Assembly: GCA_900473745.1 (NCBI GenBank)
Contig: UCMW01000007.1
Span: 682,001 to 746,000, forward strand
From: Hyphomicrobiales bacterium
GTDB taxonomy: Bacteria > Pseudomonadota > Alphaproteobacteria > Rhizobiales > Rhizobiaceae
Direction of reading: 5' to 3'
DNA: 64,000 nucleotides
Position numbers and translations under genes: made by a program. A model generated the notes under the pieces. That model was not told where the DNA came from and did no database searches. It saw nothing but the letters and a program-made list of their open reading frames with translations. Of this stretch, positions 42,172 through 62,304 are shown piece by piece (positions within the stretch are counted from its first letter, which is position 1; each line of letters opens with the position of its first letter).

Positions 42172-43974
42172 TCAGTGCCCGGCCGTAATGCCGAAGACCA
42201 GCGACCATGCCCCAACTCCGTCCGGACGATGTTCGCCGAGGGCGTAGAGTACATCGGTGACATCCGCTTGCATCTGCGTGCGAATGTAGCGGTCTGACGG
42301 ATTGGCGACGAGGAGATAGACCCGCCCATCGTCGAGCGGCCACTCGACACGCAAGACACCCTCGCTCACCCAGTGCCGCCCACCTTTCGACATCATCGAA
42401 ACCAGGGGAACAACACGTTCGCGCCGCAGGCCGATCATCTGCCTATAGCGTTCGACCCAGACAGATCCGGATTCGGATGAAGCGACCTCCCAATCGAGCA
42501 CCGAAGAGCGGAAGGTCTCTTCGGCAGTCGGGTCGAGGACATGCTCGCCATCAAAACCCGGCATTTGCGACAGTTCCTCTTGCCGACCTTCGCGCACCGC
42601 TTCATTCAGATCTTCATCGAAGTCACAGAAGTATGGGAACGGTCGCTTCGAACGCCATTCCTCCCCCATGAACAACATGGGCACCTGTGGGGAGAGCAAC
42701 ATCAACGAAACGGCAAAGGCGAGCGCAGGCTCCGGCAAGGTTGCCATCACCCTATCTCCGTCGGCACGATTGCCTATATGATCGTGATTGTGCAGAAAGG
42801 AAACGAAGGCTGTGGGTGGAAGGTGGCCGCTTGGTGCACCACGTCGTTCGCCGCGATAGGGCATGACCTCCCCTTGGTAGACAAACCCCTCGGCCAGTGC
42901 CTTCGCCAAGGCCTCGATGGCCTCCGCATAGTCGCCATAGTAGCCGAATGTTTCACCTGTTGTCGCGACATGCAGCGCATGATGCACATCGTCGTTCCAC
43001 TGGGCGTCGAACAAGGACGCGCGAGCGACCGCGTCCCGGGACAAGAGCCCAGGATCATTCTCCTCGTTTTCGACGATCAGATGCACATGGCGATCCGGAA
43101 ATTTTCGGCGGATACGGACTGCGAGTTCTTCGAGAAAATGGCGGGCGCTGTCGTCACGGATTGCATGGACCGCGTCGAAACGAAGGCCGTCGATATGAAA
43201 GTGCTCGATCCAGTAAAGCGCATTTTGCAGCAGAAATTCGCGGATCGGACCATTCTTTGCGTCGTCGAAATTGATCCCGTCGCCCCAAGACGTCTGGTGA
43301 TGCGGCGTGAAGAGCGGCGCATAGGCGGGCAGGAAATTGCCCGATGGTCCGAAGTGGTTATAGACGACATCGAGGAAAACCGAGATCCCTCGCCTGTGTG
43401 CTGCCTCGACGAGTTCGAACAGATGCTCCGGTCGTCCGTAGCGGCTATCCGGCGCATAGGGCAGCACGCCGTCATAACCCCAGTTCCACCGCCCCGGAAA
43501 ATCGGCAATGGGCATGAGCTGGATCGCCGTAACGCCGAGCTTGGACAGATGATCGAGCCGATCGATGGCGGCGCGAAAAGTCCCCTCCTCGGTAAACGCT
43601 CCGACATGCAGTTCGTAGAGCACCGTTTCGTGCCACGGCCTCCCGCGCCAGACGGAATCTCTTGCCCAGAGGTCGCCCAGATCAACGACCTCGCTCGGAC
43701 CGAACGCGTCGTCCGGCTGATGACGGCTGGCGGGATCCGGAACGGAAAGACCGTCCGGCAGGAGGAAGCGATAGCGCGTCCCGCATTTTGCCTCGGAAAC
43801 CTTGACCTGGAACCATCCGTCGGCATGCACCTCCATTTCCTGCCGCGGGGCACCATCGAACTCGATGAAAACTCTTTCGACTTGCGGCGCCCAGAAGCGA
43901 AACAGGACACCGTCATTTTCGATGAGGGGCCCGAAGGAATACTCTGTCACCACTGCTTCTCCGTCGTTCGACAT
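42172..43974 (-). CDS. treZ: Malto-oligosyltrehalose trehalohydrolase (TreZ-like, GH13)
   Basis: Releases trehalose from maltooligosyl trehalose. An N-terminal CBM48-like domain (LFRFWAPQVERVFIEFDGAP) is followed by the GH13 barrel with WNWGYDGVLPYAPDSRYGRP, the nucleophile block IDGLRFDAVHAIRDD, acid/base VENEEND and FLHNHDHIGNRADGDR. ATG 43974 gives 600 aa; the frame stays open upstream to 44145 but overlaps the neighbouring gene, so the extension is rejected. The partner treY is not in the window. Confidence 0.88.
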   Translation of the reverse strand: MSNDGEAVVTEYSFGPLIENDGVLFRFWAPQVERVFIEFDGAPRQEMEVHADGWFQVKVSEAKCGTRYRFLLPDGLSVPDPASRHQPDDAFGPSEVVDLGDLWARDSVWRGRPWHETVLYELHVGAFTEEGTFRAAIDRLDHLSKLGVTAIQLMPIADFPGRWNWGYDGVLPYAPDSRYGRPEHLFELVEAAHRRGISVFLDVVYNHFGPSGNFLPAYAPLFTPHHQTSWGDGINFDDAKNGPIREFLLQNALYWIEHFHIDGLRFDAVHAIRDDSARHFLEELAVRIRRKFPDRHVHLIVENEENDPGLLSRDAVARASLFDAQWNDDVHHALHVATTGETFGYYGDYAEAIEALAKALAEGFVYQGEVMPYRGERRGAPSGHLPPTAFVSFLHNHDHIGNRADGDRVMATLPEPALAFAVSLMLLSPQVPMLFMGEEWRSKRPFPYFCDFDEDLNEAVREGRQEELSQMPGFDGEHVLDPTAEETFRSSVLDWEVASSESGSVWVERYRQMIGLRRERVVPLVSMMSKGGRHWVSEGVLRVEWPLDDGRVYLLVANPSDRYIRTQMQADVTDVLYALGEHRPDGVGAWSLVFGITAGH

Positions 43975-44054
43975 GAGGAACCCAAACGCCGCTGGCAGCG
44001 AATGGTTCAACCCTGGAGAGCACCCTGGTACATAGGGCGGAAACTGCGCTCCCT

Positions 44055-45164
44055 TCAACGCGGAGAAAATGACAACGGGAACGTCACAGCTTGGCCGGTC
44101 TCTGCCGATTGCTGCGCAGCAAGCCCCATGGCCACGGCCCACCATCCGTCGTCGAGGGCAACTTCTACCTGTCGTCCTCCCAGCAATGCTTTCTGGAAGC
44201 GCTGATGCTGGTAGAAGGTCGACCCATTGTGGTCGCCAGCCTCCAGCAATTGCGGATCAACAGGGATTTCCACCACACGCGGCCCCTTGGGGTCACGTGG
44301 CGAGACGATGACCTGCGCAACCGGGGGCTCGCCGAGATGTTCGGGCCAGAAGCGGCCCGGACCGGGAACCAGGCATTCGATCTTGCCGTCAGGACCGACG
44401 GCCGAGATCTCCTCCTGATAGCGGGCACCTTCGGCAAACATGCAGAGCTCCAGCATGGCGCGCGCGCCGGAGGCAAAGTCGACGATGACATAGGCATTGT
44501 CCCAGATGTCGGAAGGCTTCCCATCATAGACCTCATCGAGATGGTTCACAGACTGGCCGCCGGACGCCATGACGCGCACCGGATCGGATTTCAGGATGTG
44601 CCGCATCAGATCGAAGAAGTGGCAGCATTTCTCCACCAGCGTTCCGCCAGTGTTGTGGTTGAAGCGGTTCCAGTCTCCGACCTTCTCGAGGAAGGGGAAG
44701 CGATGCTCGCGGATGGTCAGCATGCGGATGCCGCCGGTCGCCTCGTCCGCCTGCTCGATCATCCGGGCAACGGGCGGCATGTAGCGGTATTCCATGGCGA
44801 CCCAGATCGGCGCCGGATAGGCGGCGCGGAGCGCTGCAAGGCGCGGCGCATCGGCGGGATCGGTGAACAGCGGCTTCTCCACCAGAACCGGCAGCGGGCG
44901 GATCGCGGCAATCTTTTCGAGTTGTTCGAGATGCAGATAGTTGGGGCTTGCGATGAGCAGGCAGTTCACCGCCTCGACGCCGAGCAGGTCTTCGATCGAC
45001 CCGACCATCTTCGCACTCGGAACCGCCTCGGCAGACAGCGCGCGCATGCCGGCATCCGGTTCGAAGATTGCCGCCACCGACGCATCCGGCAAGAGCGCGA
45101 TATTGCGCAGATGCTCCTGCCCCATCATGCCGCAACCGATGATCCCGTATTGAAGTCCTGTCAC
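44055..45164 (-). CDS. Gfo/Idh/MocA-family NAD(P)-dependent oxidoreductase
   Basis: Sugar or polyol dehydrogenase family protein, 369 aa. The Rossmann motif YGIIGCGMMGQEHLRNIALL and the family LVEKPLF lysine-proline motif are present, with the C-terminal GFO_IDH_MocA domain (HNTGGTLVEKCCHFFDLMRH). Substrate is unknown. It lies 37 bases after the GntR gene, in the same direction, and may be its co-transcribed partner. Confidence 0.87.
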   Translation of the reverse strand: MTGLQYGIIGCGMMGQEHLRNIALLPDASVAAIFEPDAGMRALSAEAVPSAKMVGSIEDLLGVEAVNCLLIASPNYLHLEQLEKIAAIRPLPVLVEKPLFTDPADAPRLAALRAAYPAPIWVAMEYRYMPPVARMIEQADEATGGIRMLTIREHRFPFLEKVGDWNRFNHNTGGTLVEKCCHFFDLMRHILKSDPVRVMASGGQSVNHLDEVYDGKPSDIWDNAYVIVDFASGARAMLELCMFAEGARYQEEISAVGPDGKIECLVPGPGRFWPEHLGEPPVAQVIVSPRDPKGPRVVEIPVDPQLLEAGDHNGSTFYQHQRFQKALLGGRQVEVALDDGWWAVAMGLAAQQSAETGQAVTFPLSFSPR

Positions 45165-45201: not shown

Positions 45202-45921
45202 TCATTTCAGCCGCGCGACGTAGCGGGCGACGGTGTGATCGAGCCAGGACCGCGAGACTTCCGCGCGGACGCCCTCCTGATCCTGGCTGATGCGTTGAAT
45301 GTGTGTGACCGGCGCGCCGGCCGCCTGGCCAAAGCTCGCAGGCGCCCAGTCCGGCACGATGTCGAGGCCAATCTGATCTTCCGCGCGGGCGATCCAGAGC
45401 GAGAGCTTGGTGCGGTAGAAGAGATAAAGGGATTCCGACACCGCCTCGATATGGATTCTCTCGACATAGGAGCCGTCGAGCCAGATCTCCTCAAGCGCCG
45501 CCGGTCTGCCGGAGAGACGACGCAGACGCCGGATGCGATGCGCCTCTGTGGAACTGCCGAAACTGGGCAGTTCCGAAGGCTTCGGAAGGCGGTCGATCGA
45601 AAGGATCTCGGCCGTCGGCAATCCGCCTCCGCCCAGGAGTTCCAGCCGGAACATCGCATAGACCGACTGCGGATCCGAGATCGCCCGCACGTAGTTGCCG
45701 GAGCCCTGTATGCGCTCAAGAAGCCCGCGATTCTGCAGCTCCGCCAAGGCCTTGCGCAGCGTGCCGACGGCAATGCCGAGTTCTTCGGCCATGTCCCGTT
45801 CCGGCGGCAGCTTTTCGCCGTCGATCAGCCGCCCTGCCGCGATGTCACGCACCAGGAGTTCGGTGATCTGCACATAGATCGGAAGGCTGCCGGGCGGCTG
45901 CGTTGCGGGGTTTTGTGGCAC
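45202..45921 (-). CDS. GntR-family (HutC subfamily) transcriptional regulator
   Basis: 239-aa regulator. The N-terminal winged HTH contains PPERDMAEELGIAVGTLRKAL, then LQNRGLLERIQGSGNYV; the C-terminal UTRA ligand-binding domain includes LRRLSGRPAALEEIWLDGSY. It is divergent from the monooxygenase operon at 46.0 kb with a palindrome in the gap, so it probably controls both directions. Confidence 0.9.
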   Translation of the reverse strand: MPQNPATQPPGSLPIYVQITELLVRDIAAGRLIDGEKLPPERDMAEELGIAVGTLRKALAELQNRGLLERIQGSGNYVRAISDPQSVYAMFRLELLGGGGLPTAEILSIDRLPKPSELPSFGSSTEAHRIRRLRRLSGRPAALEEIWLDGSYVERIHIEAVSESLYLFYRTKLSLWIARAEDQIGLDIVPDWAPASFGQAAGAPVTHIQRISQDQEGVRAEVSRSWLDHTVARYVARLK

Positions 45922-45952
45922 TTCGGTACGCCCAGAAAAAATTGATACACTA

Positions 45953-45966
45953 TTGATCTACATCAA
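45953..45966. promoter_or_regulatory. Candidate GntR operator (TTGAT-N4-ATCAA)
   Basis: TTGATCTACATCAA is an inverted repeat 32 bases upstream of the GntR gene and 48 bases upstream of the monooxygenase gene. A further ATTGAT half-site lies at about 45941. Likely operator by position; not matched to a known consensus. Confidence 0.45.
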
Positions 45967-46013
45967 ATCGAGTGTTAGGCAAGAGGAAAGTTGGAGCCTT
46001 GGAGGAGACCTCA

Positions 46014-47171
46014 ATGACTGTCGTACCCGTCACATCGGCCGATCTCGATGGCGCAGAAGTGTCGTGGTTCGCCGCCCTCTGCTCTGACGATTATCAGTTT
46101 CTCGGCGTGCCGGATGGCGCCCTGCGCTCAAGCTGGGAGCATTGCTCCGACATCGTGTCAAAGGCCGAGCAGCTCGGCTTCCGCAACATCCTCTGCCCGT
46201 CCTCCTATCAGGTCGGCCAGGACACGCTGAGCTTCGTCGCCGGCTGCGCGCCAATCACCTCCAAGATCAACATGCTGGCCGCCATCCGCTGCGGCGAGAT
46301 GCAGCCGATCATGCTCGCGCGGACCGTCGCCACGCTCGACCACATGCTGAAGGGTCGCCTGACACTCAACGTCATCAGCTCCGATTTCCCCGGCGAAGTC
46401 GCAGACAGTGCCTTCCGCTACAAACGTAGCCATGAGGTGGTCGAGATCCTGCGCCAGGCCTGGACCCGCGACACCATCGATCACGAGGGTGAGGTCTACC
46501 AGTTCAAGGGCGTATCCACCGAACCCGCCCGACCCTACCAGCAGAATGGCGGCCCCCTGCTCTATTTCGGCGGTTACTCCCCCGATGCCCTCGAGCTCTG
46601 CGGCGCGCAATGCGACGTTTATCTGATGTGGCCGGAGAAGAAGGACCAGCTCGCAGAACGCATGAAGGCCGTGCATGCGCGCGCTGAAGCGCATGGCCGC
46701 ACGCTGGACTATGGTCTGCGCGTCCACATGATCGTGCGCGACACGGAAAAGGAAGCCCGCGAATACGCCGAATACATCGTCTCGAAGCTCGATGACGAAT
46801 ACGGCAAGCTGATCCGTGATCGCGCGCATGACTCGATTTCGCTGGGTGTCGCCCATCAGGCCCGCGCCCGCGAACTCGCCGACCAGTTCGGCTACATCGA
46901 ACCGCATATGTGGACCGGCATTGGTCGCGCGCGCTCCGGCTGTGGTGCGGCCCTTGTCGGTTCGACGGACCAGATCCTCTCGGAACTCGAAGCCTACAGA
47001 AAAATGGGTATCCGCGCCTTCATCCTGTCAGGATATCCCCATATCGACGAGGCGGTTCACTTCGGCACCAAGGTGCTGCCGGAACTCAAGACCGTCTCGC
47101 TCCCCCATGCTTATGGCCGCGTTCCCTCGGAAACGCCGCCCACACCTCTCGGAAATGGAGTTCGCCGCTGA
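46014..47171 (+). CDS. SsuD-like flavin-dependent (LLM class) monooxygenase
   Basis: Luciferase-like TIM-barrel monooxygenase, 385 aa, most like alkanesulfonate monooxygenases that use FMNH2 and O2 to cleave C-sulfonate bonds, giving an aldehyde and sulfite. Landmarks: SWFAALCSDDYQFLGVP, RLTLNVISSDFPGEVADSAF, GGPLLYFGGYSPDALELCGA, GIGRARSGCGAALVGSTDQI and AFILSGYPHIDEAVHFG. ATG 46014 has ggaggaga upstream. It is co-translated with a reductase pair and followed by TRAP and YeiH genes, which supports an organosulfonate substrate. The exact substrate is not readable. Confidence 0.87.
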   Translation: MTVVPVTSADLDGAEVSWFAALCSDDYQFLGVPDGALRSSWEHCSDIVSKAEQLGFRNILCPSSYQVGQDTLSFVAGCAPITSKINMLAAIRCGEMQPIMLARTVATLDHMLKGRLTLNVISSDFPGEVADSAFRYKRSHEVVEILRQAWTRDTIDHEGEVYQFKGVSTEPARPYQQNGGPLLYFGGYSPDALELCGAQCDVYLMWPEKKDQLAERMKAVHARAEAHGRTLDYGLRVHMIVRDTEKEAREYAEYIVSKLDDEYGKLIRDRAHDSISLGVAHQARARELADQFGYIEPHMWTGIGRARSGCGAALVGSTDQILSELEAYRKMGIRAFILSGYPHIDEAVHFGTKVLPELKTVSLPHAYGRVPSETPPTPLGNGVRR

Positions 47172-48064
47172 TGCAGCGCGTCAATCTCACCCCAGACCTC
47201 ACCTTCAGCCGCCTCGTCTACGGCATGTGGCGCATCGGCGACGATGCCGATACCTCGCCCAAACACGTCCAGGCCAAGATCGAGGCTTGCCTCGCCCAGG
47301 GCATAACCACCATGGACCAAGCGGACATCTATGGCGGCTACACGGCGGAAGCCGTGCTCGGCAACGCGCTGAAGGCCTCGCCCGGCCTGCGCGACAAGCT
47401 CGAGATCGTCACCAAATGCGATATCGTTGCACCCGCAGGCCGGCACTCGGCAGCCCGCGTCAAGTATTACGACACGTCGGCGGCTCACATCACCGCGTCG
47501 GTCGAAGCCTCGCTCACCGACATGGGCACTGATCATATCGACCTGTTGCTGATCCACCGCCCCGATCCGTTGATCGATCCGGACGAAACGGGCCCGGCGC
47601 TGGATGCGTTGGTGGCCTCCGGCAAGGTGCTGGCAGTTGGCGTCTCGAACTTCCGGCCCTGGGATTTCTCCCTCCTGCAGTCGTCGATGGAGAACAATCT
47701 CGTCACCAACCAGATCGAGATGAGCCTGCTCGCGACCGACACCTTTGTGAACGGCGATCTCGCCTATCTGCAGGAGCGCATGGTCCCGCCCATGGCCTGG
47801 TCACCGCTCGGCGGCGGTCGCCTCATGGACGGGTCAAAGCCCGAGCTCATGGCAGCCCTGAAGCGCATCGGCGCCGAACACGGCATCGATGAAACCGCCG
47901 TGGCGGTGGCTTGGCTGCTGCGGCATCCGGCCACCATCCTGCCGGTCATGGGCACCAATTCGCTCGATCGCATCGCCAGGATCGCAGACGCAGCCAAGCT
48001 GGAGATGGATCGGCAGACCTGGTTCGAACTTTACACACTCGCGATCGGACGGGAGGTTGCCTGA
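47171..48064 (+). CDS. Aldo/keto reductase
   Basis: 297-aa NAD(P)H-dependent aldo/keto reductase. The catalytic tetrad is visible as Asp (TTMDQADIYGGY), Tyr in the same block, Lys (IVTKCDI) and His (DLLLIHRPDPL); the cofactor region includes AVGVSNFRPWDF. Its start overlaps the monooxygenase stop (TGATG) and its stop overlaps the flavin reductase start in the same way. It could reduce the aldehyde produced by oxidative desulfonation. Confidence 0.9.
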   Translation: MQRVNLTPDLTFSRLVYGMWRIGDDADTSPKHVQAKIEACLAQGITTMDQADIYGGYTAEAVLGNALKASPGLRDKLEIVTKCDIVAPAGRHSAARVKYYDTSAAHITASVEASLTDMGTDHIDLLLIHRPDPLIDPDETGPALDALVASGKVLAVGVSNFRPWDFSLLQSSMENNLVTNQIEMSLLATDTFVNGDLAYLQERMVPPMAWSPLGGGRLMDGSKPELMAALKRIGAEHGIDETAVAVAWLLRHPATILPVMGTNSLDRIARIADAAKLEMDRQTWFELYTLAIGREVA

Positions 48065-48582
48065 TGATGGCTGCCAATCACATTCATGCGATGGAAGCCC
48101 TCTTCGTTCCCGGGGGCGACAACCATCGCGCATACCGCAATGCGCTCGGCAGCTTCACCACAGGTGTGACCGTGGTGACGGCGATGACAGCCGAGGGTCC
48201 GATCGGCATGACGGTGAATAGCTTTGCCTCGGTTTCGCTCGATCCGCCTCTGGTGCTCTGGTCGCCGGCCAAGAGCTCATCTCGATACGGCGCATTCACG
48301 GGCGCCCGTCATTTCGCGATCCACGTGCTCGGCGCGGATCAGGATCACCTGAGCGCTGCCTTTACACGCGGCGGCCATGGTTTCGACGGGATCGAGGTCA
48401 GGTTCAACGACGAAGGCGTTCCGGTTCTGCCGGGCACGCTCGCGCGATTCGAATGCACCGAGCAGGCACAGCATGACGCCGGCGATCACACGATCATCAT
48501 CGGCAGGGTGTTAAGGGTCGCACATCGGCAGGGAGAACCGCTGTGCTTCTCGGGAGGACGGTTCGGACGCTTCGCCGTCTGA
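48064..48582 (+). CDS. Flavin reductase (DIM6/NTAB family)
   Basis: 172-aa FMN-binding reductase domain protein supplying reduced flavin to the monooxygenase two genes upstream. Family blocks: YRNALGSFTTGVTVVTAMTA, GPIGMTVNSFASVSLDPPLV and FSGGRFGRFAV. The start at 48064 overlaps the upstream stop by one base. The 184-base gap after it shows no clear gene. Confidence 0.9.
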   Translation: MMAANHIHAMEALFVPGGDNHRAYRNALGSFTTGVTVVTAMTAEGPIGMTVNSFASVSLDPPLVLWSPAKSSSRYGAFTGARHFAIHVLGADQDHLSAAFTRGGHGFDGIEVRFNDEGVPVLPGTLARFECTEQAQHDAGDHTIIIGRVLRVAHRQGEPLCFSGGRFGRFAV

Positions 48583-48766
48583 GCGGAGAGTTTGGGAGGA
48601 GGTCGTCGGTGCATGCCTGGCATGCGCGGCGAGGCAATTGAGGACGATCCGGAACAAGTGCCGCAAGGAGGATTTTACTCCGCCGCGGCCTGAAACTGGA
48701 ACAGCCGTGTTTGCGCGGCGGGGGAGAGTCTTCGATAATTTTGCTGGATTTGACCGATGACAAGAA

Positions 48767-49369
48767 ATGGGTGGAGACATGACGGCATTATCAAATCTGA
48801 CCAATCTGCTCGGCCGGCTCAACGCCGCCGTTCTGATGGTCGGCCTCTGGCTGGGCGCAGGCGCTCTCGGCATCATGCTGTTTTTCATGCTGATGCAGGT
48901 ATTCTTCCGCTATTTCCTGGGTAATGCTTTGCCGTGGAGCGAAGAGGCTTCGCGCTTTCTGATGCTCTGGATGACCGGCCTTCTGGTACCAACGGCCTTC
49001 CGCCAGGGTGGCTTCGTTGCGATCGGCATGATCATCGACCATCTGCCACGGCTACTCTCCACCCTGATCACCTTTGTCTTCCTCCTGCTGAGCGCGACCG
49101 TTCTTTACGTCGGCATGCGCATCGGCTGGAACGAAGTAACAGGGATTGGCGGCCGGTTCGCGATGTCGGCGATCGCCGTTCCGACCTCCTTAGACCTCTC
49201 GACCTGGATGAAGGTGCCGCGCGGCTGGATGATGGCTTCGCTCGTCGTCGGCATCACCTTGATGCTCGTCGTCAACATCGAGCTTTTGCTGCGCGCGCTA
49301 CTGAGGCTGGCGGGCCGCGACCGGGAACTGATGCCGATCCGCATTGCCGGACAGTTGGGAGCGGAATGA
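48767..49369 (+). CDS. TRAP transporter small permease (DctQ-type)
   Basis: 200-aa four-helix membrane subunit of a tripartite ATP-independent transporter. Typical block ALPWSEEASRFLMLWMTGLL with VPTAFRQGGFVAIGMIID. ATG 48767 is taken; an ATG at 48779 has a ggag too close to serve well. It overlaps the large permease start by 4 bases. Confidence 0.9.
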   Translation: MGGDMTALSNLTNLLGRLNAAVLMVGLWLGAGALGIMLFFMLMQVFFRYFLGNALPWSEEASRFLMLWMTGLLVPTAFRQGGFVAIGMIIDHLPRLLSTLITFVFLLLSATVLYVGMRIGWNEVTGIGGRFAMSAIAVPTSLDLSTWMKVPRGWMMASLVVGITLMLVVNIELLLRALLRLAGRDRELMPIRIAGQLGAE

Positions 49370-50658
49370 TGCTGAGCCTCTTTCTCCCGATCTTCATCGT
49401 CTTCCTCCTTTTCGGCCTGCCGATCGTTTTCAGTTTGATCGCAGCTCCCGCTATCATCCTCTGGTGGAACGGCCAGGAGCGCGACATCGTGCTGCTCTAT
49501 CGCAACATCTATGCGGGCATGGATAGTTTCCCGTTGATGGCGATCCCCTTCTTCATGCTGACAGGCGAACTGATGAACCGGGCGGGTATAACCGTCCGCA
49601 TCGTTCGTTTTGCCCAATCCATGGTCGGCCACATGCGTGGCGGCCTCGCCCAGGTCAACGTCGTCGACTCCATGATGTTCGCCGGCATTTCCGGCTCGGC
49701 CGTAGCCGACGTCTCTGCCCTCGGTGCGATGCTGATCCCGGCCATGGAAAAGGAAGGCTATACCCGCCGTTTCGCGGCCGGCATCACGGCGGCGTCTGCC
49801 ATCATCGGCCCGATCATCCCGCCCTCCGGCATCATGATCATCTACGCCTATGTGATGGGTGAGAGCGTCGCTGCCCTCTTCCTCGCCGGCATCGTGCCCG
49901 GCATTCTCATCGGCGTCAGCCTCATGGTGATGATCCGGCTGCTAGCCAATCACTACGATCTGCCGGCCGCAACCAAGCGCGCCTCGTGGCGCGATCGTGG
50001 CCGGGCCATGATCGGCGCGTTCTGGCCGCTCCTCACCCCCGTCATCATCATGGGCGGCATCCTCGGCGGCGTCTTCACACCGACGGAAGCCGCAGCGATT
50101 GCCGCCGGCTATGCCTTCTTCCTCGGCCTCTTCGTCATTGGCACGCTGAGGTTCAAGGATATACCGGGCATCCTGATGCGCTCGGCGATGACCTCGGCAG
50201 TGGTGCTTCTGCTGATCGGGGCCGCCATGGCCTTCAAGACCGTGGCATCGCTTGCACATACGCCAGAACTGCTGGCCGATCTATTCCTCAGCCTCAGCGA
50301 CAACCCGCTCGTCCTGCTCTTCCTAGTCAATATCCTGTTGTTCGTCGTCGGCATGTTCCTCGATGCAGGACCGGCGATCATTGTGCTGGGACCGATCCTC
50401 GGGCCAATCTTCACGTCGCTCGGCGTCGATCCGGTCCACTTCGCGATCATTATGGTCGTGAACCTGACCGTCGGCCTGTTGACACCGCCGATGGGCCTCG
50501 TTCTCTTCGTCACGTCCTCCGTCTCCGGACTGAAGGTCGAAACAGTGGCCAAGGCCGTCCTGCCATTCCTCTTGGCGGAGATCGTGGTGATCTTCCTGAT
50601 CACCTACGTCCCCGCCCTGACCCTTACGGTCCCGCGTCTCGCGGGCTTCGTAGACTAG
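49366..50658 (+). CDS. TRAP transporter large permease (DctM-type)
   Basis: 430-aa, about 12-helix channel subunit. Typical family blocks are DSFPLMAIPFFMLTGELMNR, MMFAGISGSAVADVSALGAM, IIGPIIPPSGIMIIYAYVMG and LLTPPMGLVLFVTSSVSGLK. Its start overlaps the small permease (ATGATG), and the receptor gene follows 24 bases after its stop, so the three-gene system is complete. Confidence 0.95.
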   Translation: MMLSLFLPIFIVFLLFGLPIVFSLIAAPAIILWWNGQERDIVLLYRNIYAGMDSFPLMAIPFFMLTGELMNRAGITVRIVRFAQSMVGHMRGGLAQVNVVDSMMFAGISGSAVADVSALGAMLIPAMEKEGYTRRFAAGITAASAIIGPIIPPSGIMIIYAYVMGESVAALFLAGIVPGILIGVSLMVMIRLLANHYDLPAATKRASWRDRGRAMIGAFWPLLTPVIIMGGILGGVFTPTEAAAIAAGYAFFLGLFVIGTLRFKDIPGILMRSAMTSAVVLLLIGAAMAFKTVASLAHTPELLADLFLSLSDNPLVLLFLVNILLFVVGMFLDAGPAIIVLGPILGPIFTSLGVDPVHFAIIMVVNLTVGLLTPPMGLVLFVTSSVSGLKVETVAKAVLPFLLAEIVVIFLITYVPALTLTVPRLAGFVD

Positions 50659-50682
50659 CTTGAGAAAACGGGAGGTACCAGA

Positions 50683-51738
50683 ATGCTCAAGTCCATGTTC
50701 AAGACCCTGCTGCTCGCCAGCGCGCTGACGATCAGCGGGGTAGCGCAGGCAGCTGACATCACGCTCCGCGCCACCGCAAACTCTAACGAGAACGACGAGG
50801 ATTATGACGGCCTCGTCGTTTTCAAGAACTATATCGAGAACGCATCAAATGGTACGATTGCCGTCGAAATCTTCATGGGCACACAGCTTTGCGCCACCGG
50901 AGAAGAATGCCTGCAAGGCATCGCCGATGGCTCGCTGGACGTCTACATCTCGACTTCGGGCGGGGCTGCCGGCCTCTTCCCTTATATCCAGGTTCTCGAC
51001 CTGCCCTACCTGATGAGCGACGACCGGATTGCCGAGGAAGTGCTGACCGGCGACTTCACCCGCAAGCTCCGCGAAAAGGCGCTCGCCGACAGCGACAACA
51101 AGATCCGTCTGATGACGATCGGCAATACGGGTGGCTGGCGCAACTATGCGAATACCCAGAAGACGGTGAAGACCCCGGAGGATCTCAAGGGTCTGAAAAT
51201 GCGTACCGTCCCGGCCGACCTGCCGCAGCAGGCCGCCACCGCGGTCGGTGCCGCGCCGACCCCGATCCCGTGGCCGGAACTCTTCACCTCTCTGCAGACG
51301 GGCGTCGTTGAAGGCACCGCCAACGGCATCACCGACATCATGTCGATGAAGTTCCCCGATGCCGGCCTTAAGTATCTGACCCTCGACGGCCACAGCTACA
51401 TGGGCGCCTTCTGGTGGATGTCGAACGACCGCTTCCAAGGGCTGACGCCCGAGCAGAAGCAGATCGTCGTCGATGGCTTCGCAGCCCTGCAGCAGGCAAC
51501 CTTTGCCTCGCCGAAGCGCAAGGAAATCGCAGCCTACCAGGACTTCGCCAAGGCCGGCGGCGAGATCTACGTGCCGACACCTGCCGAGAAGGAAGCCTTC
51601 AAGACCGCCGTTTCGCCGGTCTTCGACTGGTTCAAGACGAACGTCACCGGCGGCGCCGAAGTGTTTGACCAGTTCACGGCAGCGGTCGCCGATGCTCAGA
51701 AAAAGGTTGACGCCGAGCGCGCGGCTGATCTGAACTGA
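50683..51738 (+). CDS. TRAP transporter substrate-binding protein (DctP-type)
   Basis: 351-aa periplasmic receptor with signal peptide (MLKSMFKTLLLASALTISGV, cleavage near AQA). The substrate-contact block GLKMRTVPADLPQQAATAVG has the conserved arginine used by DctP proteins to bind acidic groups, followed by PIPWPELFTSLQTGVVEGTA. The ligand is probably an anion; a sulfonate would suit the neighbours. Good gggagg upstream. Confidence 0.92.
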   Translation: MLKSMFKTLLLASALTISGVAQAADITLRATANSNENDEDYDGLVVFKNYIENASNGTIAVEIFMGTQLCATGEECLQGIADGSLDVYISTSGGAAGLFPYIQVLDLPYLMSDDRIAEEVLTGDFTRKLREKALADSDNKIRLMTIGNTGGWRNYANTQKTVKTPEDLKGLKMRTVPADLPQQAATAVGAAPTPIPWPELFTSLQTGVVEGTANGITDIMSMKFPDAGLKYLTLDGHSYMGAFWWMSNDRFQGLTPEQKQIVVDGFAALQQATFASPKRKEIAAYQDFAKAGGEIYVPTPAEKEAFKTAVSPVFDWFKTNVTGGAEVFDQFTAAVADAQKKVDAERAADLN

Positions 51739-51746
51739 CGAACACA

Positions 51747-51771
51747 GGATGCGCGGCCACGCCGCGCATCC
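51747..51771 (+). terminator. Hairpin after the TRAP receptor gene
   Basis: GGATGCGCGGC-CAC-GCCGCGCATCC is a perfect 11-bp stem with a 3-base loop, 8 bases after the stop. No T run follows; it may terminate or reduce read-through into the YeiH gene. Confidence 0.55.
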
Positions 51772-51834
51772 CTCCCAACCGCCCTACGCATCGCGCGATA
51801 TTTCAATCTCGGGGCGACCCACCAGAGGTGATTC

Positions 51835-52881
51835 ATGCCAGAACCATCGACCGCCTCGCCCGATCCGGAGCGAGAACGCCACTCTGCGACCTTGAGCGAG
51901 CGATGGCAGAAGCTTTTCCCCGGTCTGTCCGTGACCGTGTTGATCGCGCTGGCCTCAGCTTTCCTGTCCGAACACTACGGCGCGCCGGCCATGCTGCTCG
52001 CGATTCTGATCGGGCTTGCGCTGCACTTCCTGGCCGAAGACCCGAAGACTGCTGCAGGCCTCGACTTCGCCTCGCGCACGGTTCTTCGCATCGGTATTGC
52101 CCTGCTCGGCCTGAGGGTCAGCGTCGCGATGTTCGCCGAGCTCGGTGCGGCCGTGATCGCGATGATCGTCGGCGCTGTGCTGCTCACCATTGTCTTTGGC
52201 ATCCTAGCCTCTCGCCTCTCTGGACAGGGCACGGCCTTCGGCGTCCTGACCGGTGGTGCTGTCGCGATATGCGGGGCTTCGGCAGCCCTTGCGATCTCCG
52301 CAACGCTTGGAAACCGCAGCAAGGAAGCCGACCAGCAGATGGTCTTCACCGTCATCGGTGTGACCATGCTGTCAACGCTGGCCATGATCTTCTACCCGAT
52401 CCTCGCAAGTCTGGCAGGGTTGGACGATCACCAGACCGGCATCTTCCTCGGTGCGACAATCCATGATGTGGCCCAGGTCGCTGGCGCCGGCTTCTCTGTT
52501 TCCGTGCCCGCAGGCGAGACCGCTGTCTTCGTCAAGCTCATCCGCGTGACCATGCTGGCGCCTGTGGTCCTCGTGGCAGCACTCGCCTTTCGAAGCACGG
52601 TCTCCGGCGATGTGAAGCGCCCGCCGCTGCTGCCGGGCTTCGTGGTGGCCTTCCTGTTGCTGGCAGCACTGAACTCGCTTGTGACCATCCCCCCCATGGT
52701 GGCCGATTGGGCAGGCATCGTCTCGCGCTGGGCCCTCCTGGTCGCCATTGCCGCCGTCGGCGTAAAGACTTCACTTCCAGAAGTCTTCAAGATCGGCGGA
52801 CGCGCGATCGGCGTGCTGGTCGCTGATACCGTCTTCCTTGCACTGATCGTACTGGCAGTCCTCGTTTTCGTCGGGCTTTAA
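51835..52881 (+). CDS. YeiH-family (UPF0324) putative sulfite exporter membrane protein
   Basis: 348-aa polytopic membrane protein. Typical blocks are FASRTVLRIGIALLGLRVSV, LTGGAVAICGASAALAISAT and ATIHDVAQVAGAGFSVS. Members of this family often lie next to sulfonate-degrading genes, where they are proposed to export sulfite; that fits the monooxygenase/TRAP cluster upstream. No biochemical proof for most members. Confidence 0.87.
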   Translation: MPEPSTASPDPERERHSATLSERWQKLFPGLSVTVLIALASAFLSEHYGAPAMLLAILIGLALHFLAEDPKTAAGLDFASRTVLRIGIALLGLRVSVAMFAELGAAVIAMIVGAVLLTIVFGILASRLSGQGTAFGVLTGGAVAICGASAALAISATLGNRSKEADQQMVFTVIGVTMLSTLAMIFYPILASLAGLDDHQTGIFLGATIHDVAQVAGAGFSVSVPAGETAVFVKLIRVTMLAPVVLVAALAFRSTVSGDVKRPPLLPGFVVAFLLLAALNSLVTIPPMVADWAGIVSRWALLVAIAAVGVKTSLPEVFKIGGRAIGVLVADTVFLALIVLAVLVFVGL

Positions 52882-52967: not shown

Positions 52968-53627
52968 ATGGCAAAGACACCCAAGACAGCGAAAAGCGCC
53001 CAGAAGCCGGCGCTGACGCAGGATCCCCATGCGGTGCGCGAGCCCCGCGCCAACAATCTCGAGATGGCGATCGGCCATGAAGTCCGCACCTATCGCAAGA
53101 AGCTCGGCATTACCGTCGCCGATCTCGCCGCAGCCACGGGCATGTCGGTCGGCATGCTGTCAAAGATCGAAAACGGCAATATATCGCCTTCGCTGACCAC
53201 GCTTCAGGCGCTATCGAAGGCGCTGGGGATGCCGATCACCGCCTTCTTCAAGGGCTTCGAGGAGCCGAAGTCGGCAAGCTTCGTGAAGGCGGGTGAAGGC
53301 GTGAACCTGGAGCGCCGCGGAACCCGGGCCGGCCATCATTACAGTCTGCTCGGCCATATCGAGAACAACACCTCCGGCGTTGTCGTGGAGCCCTATCTGA
53401 TCACGCTGAACGCGGAATCGGACGTCTTTCCGACCTTCCAGCACGAAGGCATGGAGTTCCTCTACATGCTGGAAGGCGAAGTGGTCTATCGGCACGGGGA
53501 TAGCCTCTATCGGATGCAGGCAGGCGACAGCCTGTTCTTCGACGCCGATGCACCGCACGGGCCGGAAGAACTCGTAAGCCTGCCCGCACGATACCTGTCG
53601 ATCATCTCCTATCCCCAGCGCCGATAG
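52968..53627 (+). CDS. XRE-cupin transcriptional regulator
   Basis: 219-aa regulator: N-terminal XRE HTH (TYRKKLGITVADLAAATGMS, then VGMLSKIENGNISPSLTTLQ) and C-terminal cupin domain (FPTFQHEGMEFLYMLEGEVV and DSLFFDADAPHGPEEL). It is 89 bases upstream of glxB in the same direction, the usual place for a regulator of glxBCD-glnT-type operons. ggagg precedes the ATG. Confidence 0.9.
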   Translation: MAKTPKTAKSAQKPALTQDPHAVREPRANNLEMAIGHEVRTYRKKLGITVADLAAATGMSVGMLSKIENGNISPSLTTLQALSKALGMPITAFFKGFEEPKSASFVKAGEGVNLERRGTRAGHHYSLLGHIENNTSGVVVEPYLITLNAESDVFPTFQHEGMEFLYMLEGEVVYRHGDSLYRMQAGDSLFFDADAPHGPEELVSLPARYLSIISYPQRR

Positions 53628-53716
53628 TTGCCCATCAGGAAAACTTTATTCCTTTCGGTTGATTTTCGTGATCGCCGCTGCTAGCCCTTTCTCCAGAGAC
53701 TTTGGAGGGCGTGGCC

Positions 53717-54622
53717 ATGTGCGGCATTGTAGGTCTGTTTCTCAAGGACAAGGCGCTGGAGCCCCGGCTCGGCGATCTCCTCTCGGACATGCTGATCACC
53801 ATGACCGACCGAGGACCGGACTCGGCCGGCATCGCCATCTATGGCGGCGTCGATGGCAAGACCGCCAAGGTCACCATCCAGTCCGCCGCCCCGGAAACTG
53901 ATTTTGCCGGACTGGCAGAAGATCTGGCGACAGCCGGCATCGCCGCGGAAATCGAATTGAAGAGTACCCATGCGGTCATCTCGATCGCCGCAAGCAAGTT
54001 GACCGAGATCCGGACGGCCCTCGCCGAAATCCGCCCTAACGTCCGCATCATGGGCTCGGGCCAAAGCGTCGAGATCTTCAAGGAAGTCGGCCTTCCGAGG
54101 GAAGTCGTGCAACGTTTCGGCGTCCGCGCCATGGGCGGCACACACGGCATCGGCCATACCCGCATGGCGACCGAAAGCGCGGTCACAACGCTTGGGGCCC
54201 ATCCCTTCTCGACCGGGGCCGACCAGTGCCTCGTGCACAATGGCTCGCTGTCGAACCACAACAATCTGCGCCGCGAGCTGATCCGCGAAGGCATGTCCTT
54301 CGAGACCCAGAACGATAGCGAAGTCGCCGCTGCCTATCTCACAGCCGAGATGGCCAAGGGCAAGGATCTCGGCGAAGCCCTGACCGGCGCCCTTGATGAT
54401 CTCGACGGCTTCTTCACCTTCGTCGTCGGGACCAAGACCGGTTTCGGCGTCGTGCGCGACCCGATCGCCTGCAAACCCGCCGTCATGGCCGAGACCGACC
54501 AGTATGTGGCCTTCGGTTCCGAGTACCGCGCTCTGGTCAACCTGCCGGGCATCGAGACCGCCCGCGTCTGGGAGCCGGAACCGGCCACCGTCTATTTCTG
54601 GGACCACGAAAAGGCCGCCTGA
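53717..54622 (+). CDS. glxB: Class II glutamine amidotransferase subunit (GlxB/MgsA)
   Basis: 301-aa protein whose Met is followed by Cys (MCGIVGLFLKDK), the N-terminal nucleophile of Ntn amidotransferases. GIGHTRMATESAV and DQCLVHNGSLSNHNNLRREL complete the glutaminase-type site. It corresponds to the N-terminal amidotransferase part of glutamate synthase, here as a separate subunit, as in N-methylglutamate synthase MgsA. tggaggg upstream. Confidence 0.9.
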   Translation: MCGIVGLFLKDKALEPRLGDLLSDMLITMTDRGPDSAGIAIYGGVDGKTAKVTIQSAAPETDFAGLAEDLATAGIAAEIELKSTHAVISIAASKLTEIRTALAEIRPNVRIMGSGQSVEIFKEVGLPREVVQRFGVRAMGGTHGIGHTRMATESAVTTLGAHPFSTGADQCLVHNGSLSNHNNLRRELIREGMSFETQNDSEVAAAYLTAEMAKGKDLGEALTGALDDLDGFFTFVVGTKTGFGVVRDPIACKPAVMAETDQYVAFGSEYRALVNLPGIETARVWEPEPATVYFWDHEKAA

Positions 54623-54648
54623 ACCGCGATACCAAGAAAGCTTGTAGA

Positions 54649-55335
54649 ATGCCGATTTTCGACCTCTCCCATACCCCGCTTCGCGAGTTGAACAGCGCGC
54701 TCCACACTCTCGGCGAAGGCTCGAATGACACCCTGTTCGAAGTGGTGAACCCGCGCGGCCACCATGCTGTCGCCGTCGGCATCGATGCGCCTGTTACCGT
54801 CGAGGTGAAAGGATCGGTCGGCTATTATTGCGCCGGCATGAATGACGGCGGGACCGTCACCATCCATGGCTCTGCCGGGCCGGGTGTGGCCGAAAACATG
54901 ATGTCCGGCACGGTGGTGATCGAGGGCGATGCCAGCCAGTATGCCGGTGCCACCGGTCGCGGCGGCCTGCTGGTTATCAAGGGCAATGCCGCCTCCCGCT
55001 GCGGCATCTCGATGAAGGGCATCGACATCGTCGTGCACGGCTCGATCGGCCACATGTCGGCCTTCATGGGCCAGTCCGGCCACCTCGTCGTGTGCGGCGA
55101 TGCGGGCGAAGCCCTGGGCGACAGCATCTATGAAGCAAAGCTCTTCGTGCGCGGCTCGGTGAAGAGCCTCGGCGCCGATTGCGTCGAGAAAGAAATGCGC
55201 CCCGACCATCTCGAAAAGCTCGCCGAGCTGCTGGCGAAGGCCGGCGTGACGCATGCGGAGCCCGAAGAGTTCAAGCGCTACGGTTCGGCCCGCAAACTCT
55301 ACAATTTCAACATCGACAATGCCGACGCGTATTGA
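54649..55335 (+). CDS. glxC: GXGXG-motif protein, glutamate synthase gamma-like subunit (GlxC/MgsB)
   Basis: 228-aa protein of glycine-rich beta-helix repeats (MNDGGTVTIHGSAGPGVAEN; ASQYAGATGRGGLLVIKGNA), like the C-terminal domain of glutamate synthase large subunits. It is encoded separately between glxB and glxD. The ribosome-binding site is weak, so translation is probably coupled with glxB, 26 bases upstream. Confidence 0.9.
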   Translation: MPIFDLSHTPLRELNSALHTLGEGSNDTLFEVVNPRGHHAVAVGIDAPVTVEVKGSVGYYCAGMNDGGTVTIHGSAGPGVAENMMSGTVVIEGDASQYAGATGRGGLLVIKGNAASRCGISMKGIDIVVHGSIGHMSAFMGQSGHLVVCGDAGEALGDSIYEAKLFVRGSVKSLGADCVEKEMRPDHLEKLAELLAKAGVTHAEPEEFKRYGSARKLYNFNIDNADAY

Positions 55336-55349
55336 GGCGAGGAACAGCC

Positions 55350-56678
55350 ATGAGCTACCACAACCCCTTTACCCCACCGCGCAAGTCCGCCACCTTCGAT
55401 GACCACACACTCGCCGAAATCCGCCGCGCTGCAGCCACCGGCATCTACGACATCCGCGGCGGCGGCACGAAGCGCAAGGTGCCACATTTCGACGACCTTC
55501 TCTTCCTCGGTGCATCGATCTCCCGCTATCCGCTCGAAGGCTATCGCGAAAAATGCGACACCTCGGTGGTCCTCGGCGCGCGCTTTGCCAAGAAGCCGAT
55601 TGAGCTGAAGATCCCGATCACCATCGCCGGCATGAGCTTCGGCGCGCTGTCAGGCAATGCCAAGGAAGCGCTCGGTCGTGGCGCGACGCTCGCAGGCACC
55701 TCGACCACGACGGGCGACGGCGGCATGACCGACGAGGAGCGCGGCCATTCGGAAAAGCTGGTCTATCAGTATCTCCCCTCTCGTTACGGCATGAACCCGA
55801 GAGATCTGCGCCGCGCCGATGCGATCGAAATCGTGGTCGGGCAGGGGGCAAAGCCCGGCGGCGGCGGCATGCTGCTCGGCCAGAAGATCTCCGACCGCGT
55901 CGCCCAGATGCGCAATCTGCCGATGGGCATCGACCAGCGCTCCGCCTGCCGTCATCCCGATTGGACAGGCCCCGATGATCTCGAAATCAAGATCCTCGAG
56001 CTCCGCGAAATCACCGACTGGGAAAAGCCGATCTATGTGAAAGTCGGCGGCGCTCGCCCCTATTACGACACCGCTCTTGCAGTGAAGGCTGGCGCCGATG
56101 TCGTCGTGCTCGACGGCATGCAGGGCGGAACGGCAGCCACGCAGGACGTGTTCATCGAGAACGTCGGCATGCCCACCCTCGCCTGCATCCGCCCCGCCGT
56201 CCAGGCACTGCAGGATCTCGGCATGCATCGCAAGGTCCAGCTGGTGATCTCGGGCGGTATCCGCTCCGGCGCCGATGTCGCCAAGGCCTTGGCGCTTGGC
56301 GCTGACGTCGTCTCGATCGGCACGGCAGCGCTCGTTGCGATCGGCGACAACGATCCGAAGTGGGAAGAGGAATACCAGAAGCTTGGCACCACAGCCGGGG
56401 CCTATGATGACTGGCACGAAGGCAAGGACCCGGCCGGCATCACCACGCAGGATCCCGAGCTTGCCGCCCGCCTCGACCCGGTCGCTGCCGGCCGCAGGCT
56501 TGCCAACTACCTCAAGGTCATGACGCTGGAGGCGCAGACCATCGCCCGCGCCTGCGGCAAGAACAAGCTGCACAACCTGGAGCCGGAGGATCTTTGCGCA
56601 TTGACGATGGAGGCCGCCGCCATGGCGCAGGTGCCGCTCGCCGGCACCAGCTGGTACCCCGGCAAGGGAGGTTTTTAA
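55350..56678 (+). CDS. glxD: FMN-binding glutamate synthase-type subunit (GlxD/MgsC)
   Basis: 442-aa TIM-barrel synthase domain. FMN and substrate blocks: PITIAGMSFGALSGNAKEAL, GQGAKPGGGGMLLGQK and VVVLDGMQGGTAATQDVF. It pairs with GlxB and GlxC to make a three-subunit glutamate-synthase-like enzyme. In methylamine-using bacteria the same set makes N-methylglutamate. gaggcgagga precedes ATG 55350. Confidence 0.92.
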   Translation: MSYHNPFTPPRKSATFDDHTLAEIRRAAATGIYDIRGGGTKRKVPHFDDLLFLGASISRYPLEGYREKCDTSVVLGARFAKKPIELKIPITIAGMSFGALSGNAKEALGRGATLAGTSTTTGDGGMTDEERGHSEKLVYQYLPSRYGMNPRDLRRADAIEIVVGQGAKPGGGGMLLGQKISDRVAQMRNLPMGIDQRSACRHPDWTGPDDLEIKILELREITDWEKPIYVKVGGARPYYDTALAVKAGADVVVLDGMQGGTAATQDVFIENVGMPTLACIRPAVQALQDLGMHRKVQLVISGGIRSGADVAKALALGADVVSIGTAALVAIGDNDPKWEEEYQKLGTTAGAYDDWHEGKDPAGITTQDPELAARLDPVAAGRRLANYLKVMTLEAQTIARACGKNKLHNLEPEDLCALTMEAAAMAQVPLAGTSWYPGKGGF

Positions 56679-56685
56679 AAGCCTG

Positions 56686-56725
56686 ATGGCCGCATCCTGA
56701 TACCACGGATGCGGCCATTTCATTT
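56686..56725 (+). terminator. Hairpin between glxD and gmaS/glnT
   Basis: ATGGCCGCATCC and GGATGCGGCCAT (56686-56718) form a perfect 12-bp stem with a 9-base loop, followed by TTTCATTTC. It can act as a terminator or attenuator, so glxBCD and the synthetase gene may be expressed at different levels. Confidence 0.65.
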
Positions 56726-56764
56726 CAACACATGTGTCTCAATCCATAAAAACAGGGGAACGAC

Positions 56765-60890: not shown

Positions 60891-60974
60891 GCATGTCTCC
60901 GCACTGCCAATGCTCCCCGGTCGGGCCGCCCCCCGATAACAAGACGAGGGACGGCCTTCCGGGAGGTTTCGAAG

Positions 60975-61002
60975 GGCAGGCGCAAGGATTGGTGCGCCTG
61001 CC
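60975..61002 (-). other. Hairpin between binding-protein and permease genes
   Basis: GGCAGGCGCA and TGCGCCTGCC make a perfect 10-bp stem with an 8-base loop, 6 bases past the binding-protein stop. It probably stabilises the upstream mRNA or attenuates read-through, raising receptor over permease levels. Confidence 0.55.
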
Positions 61003-61008
61003 GATTGG

Positions 61009-62241: not shown

Positions 62242-62304
62242 GGTTTCCTCCTCTTGGGTTTCTGCATGGGTCTTGTCCTCCACAAGACCCATATTTCCGA
62301 GAAC

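Follow-up and report, generated by a model that had tools for sequence, protein, structure and literature searches.

The question raised by this locus is which sulfonate its enzymes degrade, and what is carried by the TRAP importer encoded beside them. Within the window (the whole stretch of 64,000 nucleotides that was analysed), the original prediction had placed a monooxygenase, an aldo/keto reductase, a flavin reductase, a TRAP system and a YeiH-type protein under a divergent GntR regulator, and each of these was found at the place and on the strand given for it. On the forward strand, genes for a luciferase-like protein, predicted to be a SmoC-type FMNH2-dependent sulfoquinovose (SQ) monooxygenase (46014–47171), a SmoB-type aldo/keto reductase (47171–48064) and a SmoA-type flavin reductase (48064–48582) are followed, after a gap of 184 bases, by a complete TRAP set, consisting of the small permease DctQ (48767–49369; PF04290), the large permease DctM (49366–50658; PF06808, with TIGR00786 above its cut-off) and the solute receptor DctP (50683–51738; PF03480), which has a signal-peptide-like start. 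The first three genes had been described as fused into one coupled unit. Their overlaps are real, with TGATG junctions at 47169–47173 (SmoC/SmoB) and 48062–48066 (SmoB/SmoA), but the three genes are separate, the stop codon of one overlapping the start codon of the next. The reverse strand carries the GntR-UTRA regulator (45202–45921; PF00392 and PF07702) as the first gene of the divergent side. With high confidence, we read the sequence as a TRAP-fed sulfo-SMO operon that serves the use of the plant sulfolipid sugar; the genome is Rhizobiaceae-like and lies near Peteryoungia.

The monooxygenase is 88.3% identical to the protein of PDB entry 7olf (339/384 residues) and 86.2% identical over 384 residues to that of 7oh2, and the aldo/keto reductase is 79.5% identical to 7bby (236/297 residues). 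We take the 7olf/7oh2-type monooxygenase to be SmoC, and 7bby to be SmoB, of the sulfo-SMO pathway for SQ, so that the comparison with these two proteins, which had been proposed as a check, came out in favour of the original prediction. The protein of entry 7oh2 has 100% identity to that of the Xaviernesmea oryzae locus (L064), and 7olf, which was deposited as a methanesulfonate sulfonatase, has 99.2% identity to that of an Agrobacterium locus (L034). The dedicated flavin reductase (PF01613) is syntenic with those of Agrobacterium-type loci and 79% identical to its counterpart in Agrobacterium pusense (L029). A lack of sulfonate-binding residues in the monooxygenase had been named as grounds for abandoning the idea; instead, W206, R236, H238, R307, Y341 and H343 align with SsuD W196, R226, H228, R297, Y331 and H333, which are presumably sulfonate binders, and all six candidate substrate residues are invariant in 93/93 SmoC rows. 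In the available text of PMC13372026, sulfo-SMO is recognised where SmoC and SmoB are both encoded within a short stretch, and the two genes are adjacent here.

It had further been claimed that neither an ABC importer nor a sulfoquinovosidase lies in the operon. The first half of this claim holds, as no SmoF orthologue was found in the genome (best match 29%), but the second overlooked a gene at 44055–45164 on the reverse strand, which belongs to the divergent side, starts 37 bases past the end of the GntR gene and lies just beyond the stretch that had been considered. The gene looks like that of a Gfo/Idh/MocA dehydrogenase, yet judged by its sequence it belongs to the GH188 NAD+-dependent sulfoquinovosidases and is SqgA-like, with PDB matches to 8zn9 (E = 1.5e-163) and 8qc2/8qc3 (E about 1e-114). 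The sulfonate triad R166/L170/K172 (ArSqgA numbering) is kept as R155, L159 and K161, ArSqgA residues K107, Y136, E189, H193 and H321 are kept as K97, Y126, E178, H182 and H312, and the acidic residue given as Glu163 in the available text of PMC10755693 (164 in the numbering used here) is kept as E153. All nine SQ-contact or catalytic positions checked are thus retained, as they are in 58/58 aligned sequences. The gene is present as a single copy, the next match in the genome being 31% over 179 residues. A genome search for a GH31 sulfoquinovosidase gave a single PF01055 match of 29.2 bits, in a 798-aa protein that was rejected as such an enzyme on reading its sequence and which we take to be GH36-type.

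The GH188 protein is probably cytoplasmic, since its sequence opens directly with the Rossmann motif, and no signal peptide is visible by eye. Because the family also requires NAD+ (according to the available text of PMC10755693), a glycoside should enter the cell intact to be used. This bears on the possibility that the TRAP system imports free SQ only, with SQ-glycerol entering by another way or being cleaved outside the cell. Such an arrangement would fit the fact that the sulfonate which DctP must hold is on SQ, and no lipase or outer-membrane transporter was seen among the ten genes scanned, but the sole sulfoquinovosidase found is of an NAD+-requiring family and has no visible signal peptide; we regard it as rather unlikely.

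A GntR orthologue (at least 45% identity) is present in 79/80 related loci, L061 being without one, and between the GntR and SmoC genes lies the element ATTGATACACTATTGATCTACA (45941–45962), in which two ATTGAT repeats stand 11 bases apart. The ATTGAT-repeat motif is found in 88 of 89 GntR–SmoC intergenic regions (the window's own counted; L078 lacks it), among them regions of both importer types, and the element is the only site in the genome at up to 3 mismatches, the reversed-pattern control giving 0. Because the element is conserved in this way, we infer that it is operator-like and a candidate GntR site for both transcripts. A TTGAT-N4-ATCAA palindrome at 45953 was also considered as the operator and rejected, as it is absent from many relatives. 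A promoter scan gave 1 site against a shuffle mean of 1.6, with nothing above the shuffles; terminator-like sites numbered 9 against a mean of 4.8, and none was relied upon.

The order SmoC, SmoB, SmoA, DctQ, DctM, DctP recurs in 22/80 related loci, where the TRAP genes adjoin SmoCBA and the matches to SmoA and DctQ lie 60 to 239 bases apart, and the arrangement is therefore not a matter of chance; the TRAP genes also adjoin SmoC in 10 of the 11 plasmids inspected. None of the 22 TRAP loci has a GH31 gene or an Agrobacterium-type ABC receptor (SmoF-type, at least 40%), and 21 of them have GH188, the exception (L016) being an 8.4-kb contig that ends before the place of that gene. In 33 of the 80 loci, neither a window-type TRAP nor a SmoF-like receptor is present in the fetched flank, and 16 of these carry a SmoE-like ATPase. 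Across a class-wide set of 385 genomes, DctP (at least 68% identity) was found in 11, SmoC (at least 74%) in 9 and both in 8 (hypergeometric 4e-12, own genome excluded). In the three genomes with DctP and no SmoC match, the TRAP genes sit inside another SQ-type cluster (L093–L095) with genes for a PfkB kinase, a LacD-type aldolase, an SQ-isomerase-like protein, an epimerase and GH188, families that were assigned by family tests in L094 and by similarity to L094 in the other two; the isomerase-like proteins score 246 and 300 bits, far under the NCBIfam SQ isomerase cut-off of 700. These sulfo-EMP2-like isomerase/aldolase clusters share TRAP orthologues (DctP about 70%) and GH188 (50–53%) with the window, but have sugar-chain cleavage genes instead of C–S cleavage and a DeoR-type regulator.

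As the TRAP system is both a conserved partner of SmoCBA and represented by orthologues in this second SQ-type cluster, its cargo is likely to be SQ or SQ-glycerol. The DctP clade is discrete, the next DctP after 69% identity being at 38% in a comparison of 58 genomes; that 38% protein (in G011) is encoded near amidohydrolase and creatininase genes, with no SQ gene recognised among the 9 scanned of 20 listed ORFs. Distances between SmoC and DctP agree modestly (r = 0.37; 19 rows, near-copies removed) compared with those between SmoC and GH188 (r = 0.79), from which it follows that one importer has now and then replaced another. On a tree of 93 SmoC rows, with a midpoint root only and TRAP scored as a receptor in the same fetched locus, TRAP needs 11 changes, 9 of them forced by starred branches, and ABC needs 4; TRAP is found on branches of Rhodobacterales as well as on several rhizobial branches.

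In the receptor itself, DctP residues R153, R174, N214 and W197 are kept in 31/31 rows and correspond to R156, R177, N217 and W200 in IseP, a receptor for isethionate (available text of PMC11668362). Among 22 DctP paralogues, R174 is found in 22, R153 in 15, N214 in 19 and W197 in 12, and by this comparison an anion site like that of DctP is also typical of receptors for carboxylates. Other IseP features, as given in the same text, are not kept: Tyr153 aligns to G150, and the hydrophobic Pro-Met-Ala cap to N33-S34-N35. A model built from a 38-row alignment that included paralogues has the DctP fold with a pLDDT of 93.3; an earlier model, built from 27 rows of mostly close sequences, had a mean pLDDT of 68.2, left half of the pocket unresolved and was discarded. 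Fold searching with the former returned many acid and sugar-acid receptors (Z 41.9 to 36.4 among the 50 matches listed), no SQ receptor being among them, and the fold does not name the ligand.

It could accordingly be argued that the enzymes degrade SQ and that the TRAP system is a mere neighbour importing another acid, such as a hexuronate or a C4 acid. The Arg/Asn anion set cannot separate sulfonate from carboxylate, the closest solved receptors by fold include, among the matches listed, the sugar-acid receptor 7bbr, and in one genome (G310) the TRAP genes lie apart from SmoC, on a different contig (a further genome, G193, is highly fragmented). We nevertheless consider this improbable in view of the repeated adjacency in 22/80 loci and 10 of 11 plasmids, the lack of a SmoF-type receptor (at least 40%) from the 22 loci and of a SmoF orthologue from this genome, the occurrence of this DctP clade in the other SQ-type cluster, which also has GH188, and the discreteness of that clade, whose nearest outsider has no recognised SQ gene among the 9 of 20 nearby ORFs that were scanned. 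The option that the route serves some other sulfonate (alkanesulfonate, isethionate, taurine or methanesulfonate), which the original prediction had kept, can be given hardly any weight: the monooxygenase has the SsuD fold, 7olf bears a methanesulfonate name, and TRAP systems have been proposed for taurine and sulfolactate (available text of PMC10507020) and shown to bind isethionate in the case of IseP (PMC11668362, likewise), but the SsuD equivalog TIGR03565 scores 239.4 bits against a cut-off of 518.2, it is not evident what a coupled SmoB and GH188 would do with such substrates, the IseP tyrosine and cap are missing from DctP in the alignment, and SmoC, SmoB and GH188, like the shared regulatory element, all indicate SQ.

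The preferred reading, SQ-type desulfonation with a TRAP importer, is thus upheld by the SmoC and SmoB identities, the kept sulfonate residues and GH188. In the periplasm, SQ-glycerol or SQ would be captured by DctP, and DctQM would import it by ion symport. In the cytoplasm, GH188 SqgA would use NAD+ to free SQ and glycerol. SmoA would provide reduced flavin to SmoC, SmoC would then cut the C–S bond with O2 to yield sulfite and 6-oxo-glucose, and SmoB would convert 6-oxo-glucose to glucose, while GntR may act at the ATTGAT-repeat element to govern the two divergent transcripts. The enzyme steps are predicted from close homology to characterised families. The weakest step is the last, in which the YeiH-type membrane protein (51835–52881, forward strand), a proposed sulfite or sulfate exporter, probably exports sulfite: it matches PF03601 (209.9 bits), scores 123.2 bits against the TIGR00698 cut-off of 232.6, and has counterparts (at least 40% identity) in 14/22 TRAP loci, being missing from 8. 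One PF03404 match (sulfite oxidation) was seen on another contig.

Overall, the locus is a widely distributed version of a system already known, for which we infer the ligand of the importer. It shares with Agrobacterium sulfo-SMO (sulfo-ASMO) the SmoC, SmoB and SmoA orthologues in the same order, a divergent GntR that is orthologous (70% in L029) and the ATTGAT-repeat element, but has TRAP in place of an ABC importer and GH188 in place of GH31, and it ends with a YeiH-type gene. GH188 is found with SmoC in Roseobacter-group sulfo-SMO clusters as well (available text of PMC10755693), and on plasmids of Ruegeria, Roseivivax, Salipiger and Roseicitreum the position of GH188 is taken by a Gfo/Idh/MocA gene, with GntR, SmoCBA and TRAP following the order seen in the window; unlike these, the host here is Rhizobiaceae-like, and in 13 fetched Rhodobacterales-type loci a gene for a MauG-like di-haem protein lies near DctP. 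IseP resembles the window's DctP in fold (8te9: Z 38.4, rmsd 1.9 across 306 residues) and in its Arg/Arg/Asn/Trp set, but is 26% identical, and an acidic D38-D42 segment stands in the latter instead of the tyrosine and hydrophobic cap described in the available part of PMC11668362.

The characterised importer of the sulfo-SMO pathway is ABC-type (available text of PMC9594981). The phrase "TRAP transporter" is absent from the searched main text of PMC10755693, and in the literature searched for SQ and TRAP together the passages concern taurine, sulfolactate and isethionate, SQ appearing in reference lists only. If true, the assignment proposed here would be the first of a TRAP system to a sulfosugar within that literature; no first report is claimed, because the TRAP genes may already be shown in Liu 2023 or in the figures and supplement of PMC10755693. 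We think it probable that the discrete DctP clade is an SQ/SQ-glycerol TRAP importer, common to oxygenolytic C–S and aldolase SQ pathways, that travels with GH188. About 10 billion tons of SQ are produced each year (PMC10755693, main text), and importers decide which organisms can use it. The TRAP system would, if true, be the ion-driven counterpart of the GH31-linked ABC importer, and a plain-looking Gfo/Idh/MocA dehydrogenase gene can fill the role of a "missing" glycosidase. A second importer class tied to GH188 in rhizobia and the Roseobacter group would be a marker for SQ users missed by GH31/SmoF searches.

The cluster in the window (G000:C16:682001-746000 of a 5.2-Mb genome) is a sulfo-SMO operon of the TRAP and GH188 kind. 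All of the genes named in the original prediction were found: a GntR regulator (45202-45921) points leftward, while genes for the monooxygenase, aldo/keto reductase, flavin reductase, DctQ, DctM, DctP and a PF03601 membrane protein run rightward in that order, with the claimed TGATG overlaps seen at the monooxygenase/reductase and reductase/flavin reductase junctions. The comparison with SmoC and SmoB proposed at that stage gave close matches, the monooxygenase being identical to PDB 7olf at 339 of 384 residues and to 7oh2 at 331 of 384, and the aldo/keto reductase to 7bby at 236 of 297. We take 7olf and 7oh2 to be SmoC structures, and 7bby the SmoB structure, from the sulfo-SMO work; 7oh2 is identical over 384 residues to the Xaviernesmea oryzae protein (L064), and 7olf is 99.2% identical to an Agrobacterium protein (L034). 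The sulfonate-binding residues suggested as a check are also present, at six positions aligned with SsuD W196, R226, H228, R297, Y331 and H333, and none of them varies among the 93 SmoC rows, the window's own included. The nearest relatives of the window SmoC (99%) are from Peteryoungia aggregata and other Rhizobiaceae.

The original prediction had noted that neither an ABC importer nor a sulfoquinovosidase lies in the operon. No SmoF orthologue was found in the genome; the best match, at 29% identity, lies within the window at 61015-61998 and belongs to a sugar ABC system. The sulfoquinovosidase, however, had been overlooked: the protein encoded at 44055-45164(-), leftward like GntR, has PDB hits to 8zn9 (E=1.5e-163) and, at E about 1e-114, to the SqgA structures 8qc2 and 8qc3. 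PMC10755693 describes SqgA as an NAD+-dependent sulfoquinovosidase of family GH188 and reports GH188 where sulfo-SMO clusters have no GH31. The window protein retains the sulfonate triad along with six other residues for contact or catalysis; the Glu163 of that source is valine by our count, glutamate being residue 164. GH188 is present as a single copy, and no GH31 sulfoquinovosidase was recognised in the genome. As the N-terminus is a Rossmann motif with no signal peptide visible by eye, the glycoside should enter the cell intact.

Several other genes flank the operon. An alpha-amylase-domain gene (42172-44145) has counterparts in some relatives only; its longest ORF shares ~90 bases with the GH188 gene, and its true start probably lies further in. 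The stretch 52968-58072, with an XRE-cupin regulator, then a glutamine-amidotransferase-like gene and later a glutamine-synthetase-domain gene, is probably a separate unit, as not all relatives have it downstream. At 58088-63207 lie another, separate ABC system for sugars (receptor 61009-62292, permease and ATPase), whose receptor is the remote SmoF match mentioned above, and a xylose-isomerase-like gene.

A SmoC scan of genome contigs gave at least 587 relatives, of which the best 80 (84-99% identity) were analysed, a choice that favours close relatives. Among these best 80 of at least 587, a TRAP receptor (at least 45% identity) was found in 22 loci, a SmoF-type ABC receptor (at least 40%) in 25, and neither inside the fetched flank in 33, 16 of which have a SmoE-like ATPase. 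GH188 was present in 44 of the same 80 and GH31 in 34; none had both, and the two with neither lie on short contig ends. GH188 accompanied 21 of the 22 TRAP loci and GH31 none, whereas GH31 accompanied 24 of the 25 ABC loci and GH188 one. SmoB (at least 50%) was absent from the fetched flank in eight GH188-bearing loci of this best 80 (L031, L035, L041, L044, L047, L048, L051, L076), where a different reductase must serve or the SmoB gene must lie elsewhere. In several loci from rhizobia and Phyllobacteriaceae, a GH88 protein and a KduI-like gene are encoded near GH188, the GH88 family having been tested in L020 and L040, and KduI in L035 (by similar N-termini in L020, L040, L043 and L065); one might guess at SQ-uronate conjugates as substrates there. 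The family search assigned no family to an 826-aa ORF in L035. SmoC matches were also found in 24 plasmid records, of which the 11 above 74% identity were inspected and 13 below 60% left out. TRAP genes adjoin SmoC or SmoCBA in 10 of the 11, and 9 of these 10 carry a Gfo/Idh/MocA gene in the position of GH188; the Qingshengfaniella plasmid has TRAP by SmoC without SmoB, SmoA or the Gfo/Idh/MocA gene in the stretch viewed. The Marinovum algicola plasmid has an ABC system instead of TRAP, and an annotated acetyl esterase (L109, 9066-9962) between flavin reductase and ABC system, which conceivably acts on acylated SQ-glycerol.

A tree built from 93 SmoC rows requires 11 changes for the TRAP label and 4 for the ABC label. 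SmoC and DctP distances correlate at 0.80 over all 31 TRAP rows; with near-copies removed (19 rows), the correlation drops to 0.37 (1 of 2000 permutations as high), that of SmoC with GH188 being 0.79. The importer therefore mostly moves with the cluster, yet has been swapped at times. An element, ATTGAT[AG][CT]A-N2-ATTG[AT]T, was found in 88 of 89 GntR-SmoC intergenic regions, the window's own included and many from close relatives, in ABC and TRAP types alike. The window copy (45941-45962) is the sole genome site with up to three mismatches, so there is no second copy in the 184-base gap before DctQ; it probably serves both the GntR/GH188 side and the SmoCBA side.

The sulfo-SMO pathway, GH188 and their association are already published. 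A TRAP importer is described for isethionate in PMC11668362, and others have been proposed for taurine and sulfolactate; the literature searched, which did not include the papers closest to the topic, yielded none for SQ, and priority is not claimed. DctP R153, R174, N214 and W197, invariant in 31 of 31 orthologues, align with R156, R177, N217 and W200 of the isethionate receptor IseP, where both arginines and the asparagine contact the sulfonate and W200 lines the site (PMC11668362). As R174, N214 and R153 also occur in 22, 19 and 15 of 22 paralogues, respectively, this residue set indicates an anion site only. Features specific to the clade, present in 16 of 16 rows and in no more than 15% of the 22 paralogues, include D38-E39-D40-Y41-D42, C70, C76, W152, D218 and W244-W245, and IseP Tyr153 is replaced by Gly150; such a site would suit a larger, hydroxylated ligand. 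The AlphaFold model (pLDDT 93.3) shows a DctP fold, with a best Z of 41.9.

A sample of 385 genomes of the class allowed a test that does not start from SmoC. DctP relatives (E<=1e-100) occurred in 12, 11 of them at >=68% identity, and SmoC (>=74%) in nine, 12 further at 49-53% being left uncounted. Both occurred in eight genomes (chance overlap ~4e-12, own genome excluded, a guide only as the genomes are related). In a 58-genome sample, receptor identity drops from 69% to 38% with nothing between, and no SQ gene was recognised near the 38% case among the 9 of 20 listed ORFs scanned. TRAP genes lie beside SmoC in six of the 11 DctP genomes; in G310 the two are on separate contigs, and G193 is too fragmented. 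A MauG-like di-haem gene is a neighbour of DctP in SQ clusters of Rhodobacterales type, for either pathway (L083, L085, L089, L093-L095, L097, L100-L105; L107 and L108 by annotation), and also accompanies the TRAP genes that stand alone in G310; in L094 it matches PF03150, with TIGR03981 below cut-off. The remaining three genomes (G022, G117, G222) have DctP and no SmoC match, and their TRAP cluster encodes a PfkB kinase, a DeoC/LacD aldolase, an SQ-isomerase-like protein, an epimerase and GH188 (50-53% identity), the families having been tested in one locus, L094, and assigned in the other two by similarity to it. The L094 protein matches the NCBIfam SQ isomerase at E=7e-73 (246 bits, cut-off 700). 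In G335 (L096), the twelfth DctP genome and a third importer/sulfoquinovosidase combination, a DctP of about 50% clusters with GH31, an aldolase again of the LacD type and an SQ-isomerase-like protein (300 bits). GH188 and TRAP genes are common to the SmoC clusters and those of G022, G117 and G222, the sugar would appear to be so too, and these shared features are the strongest argument for the TRAP ligand.
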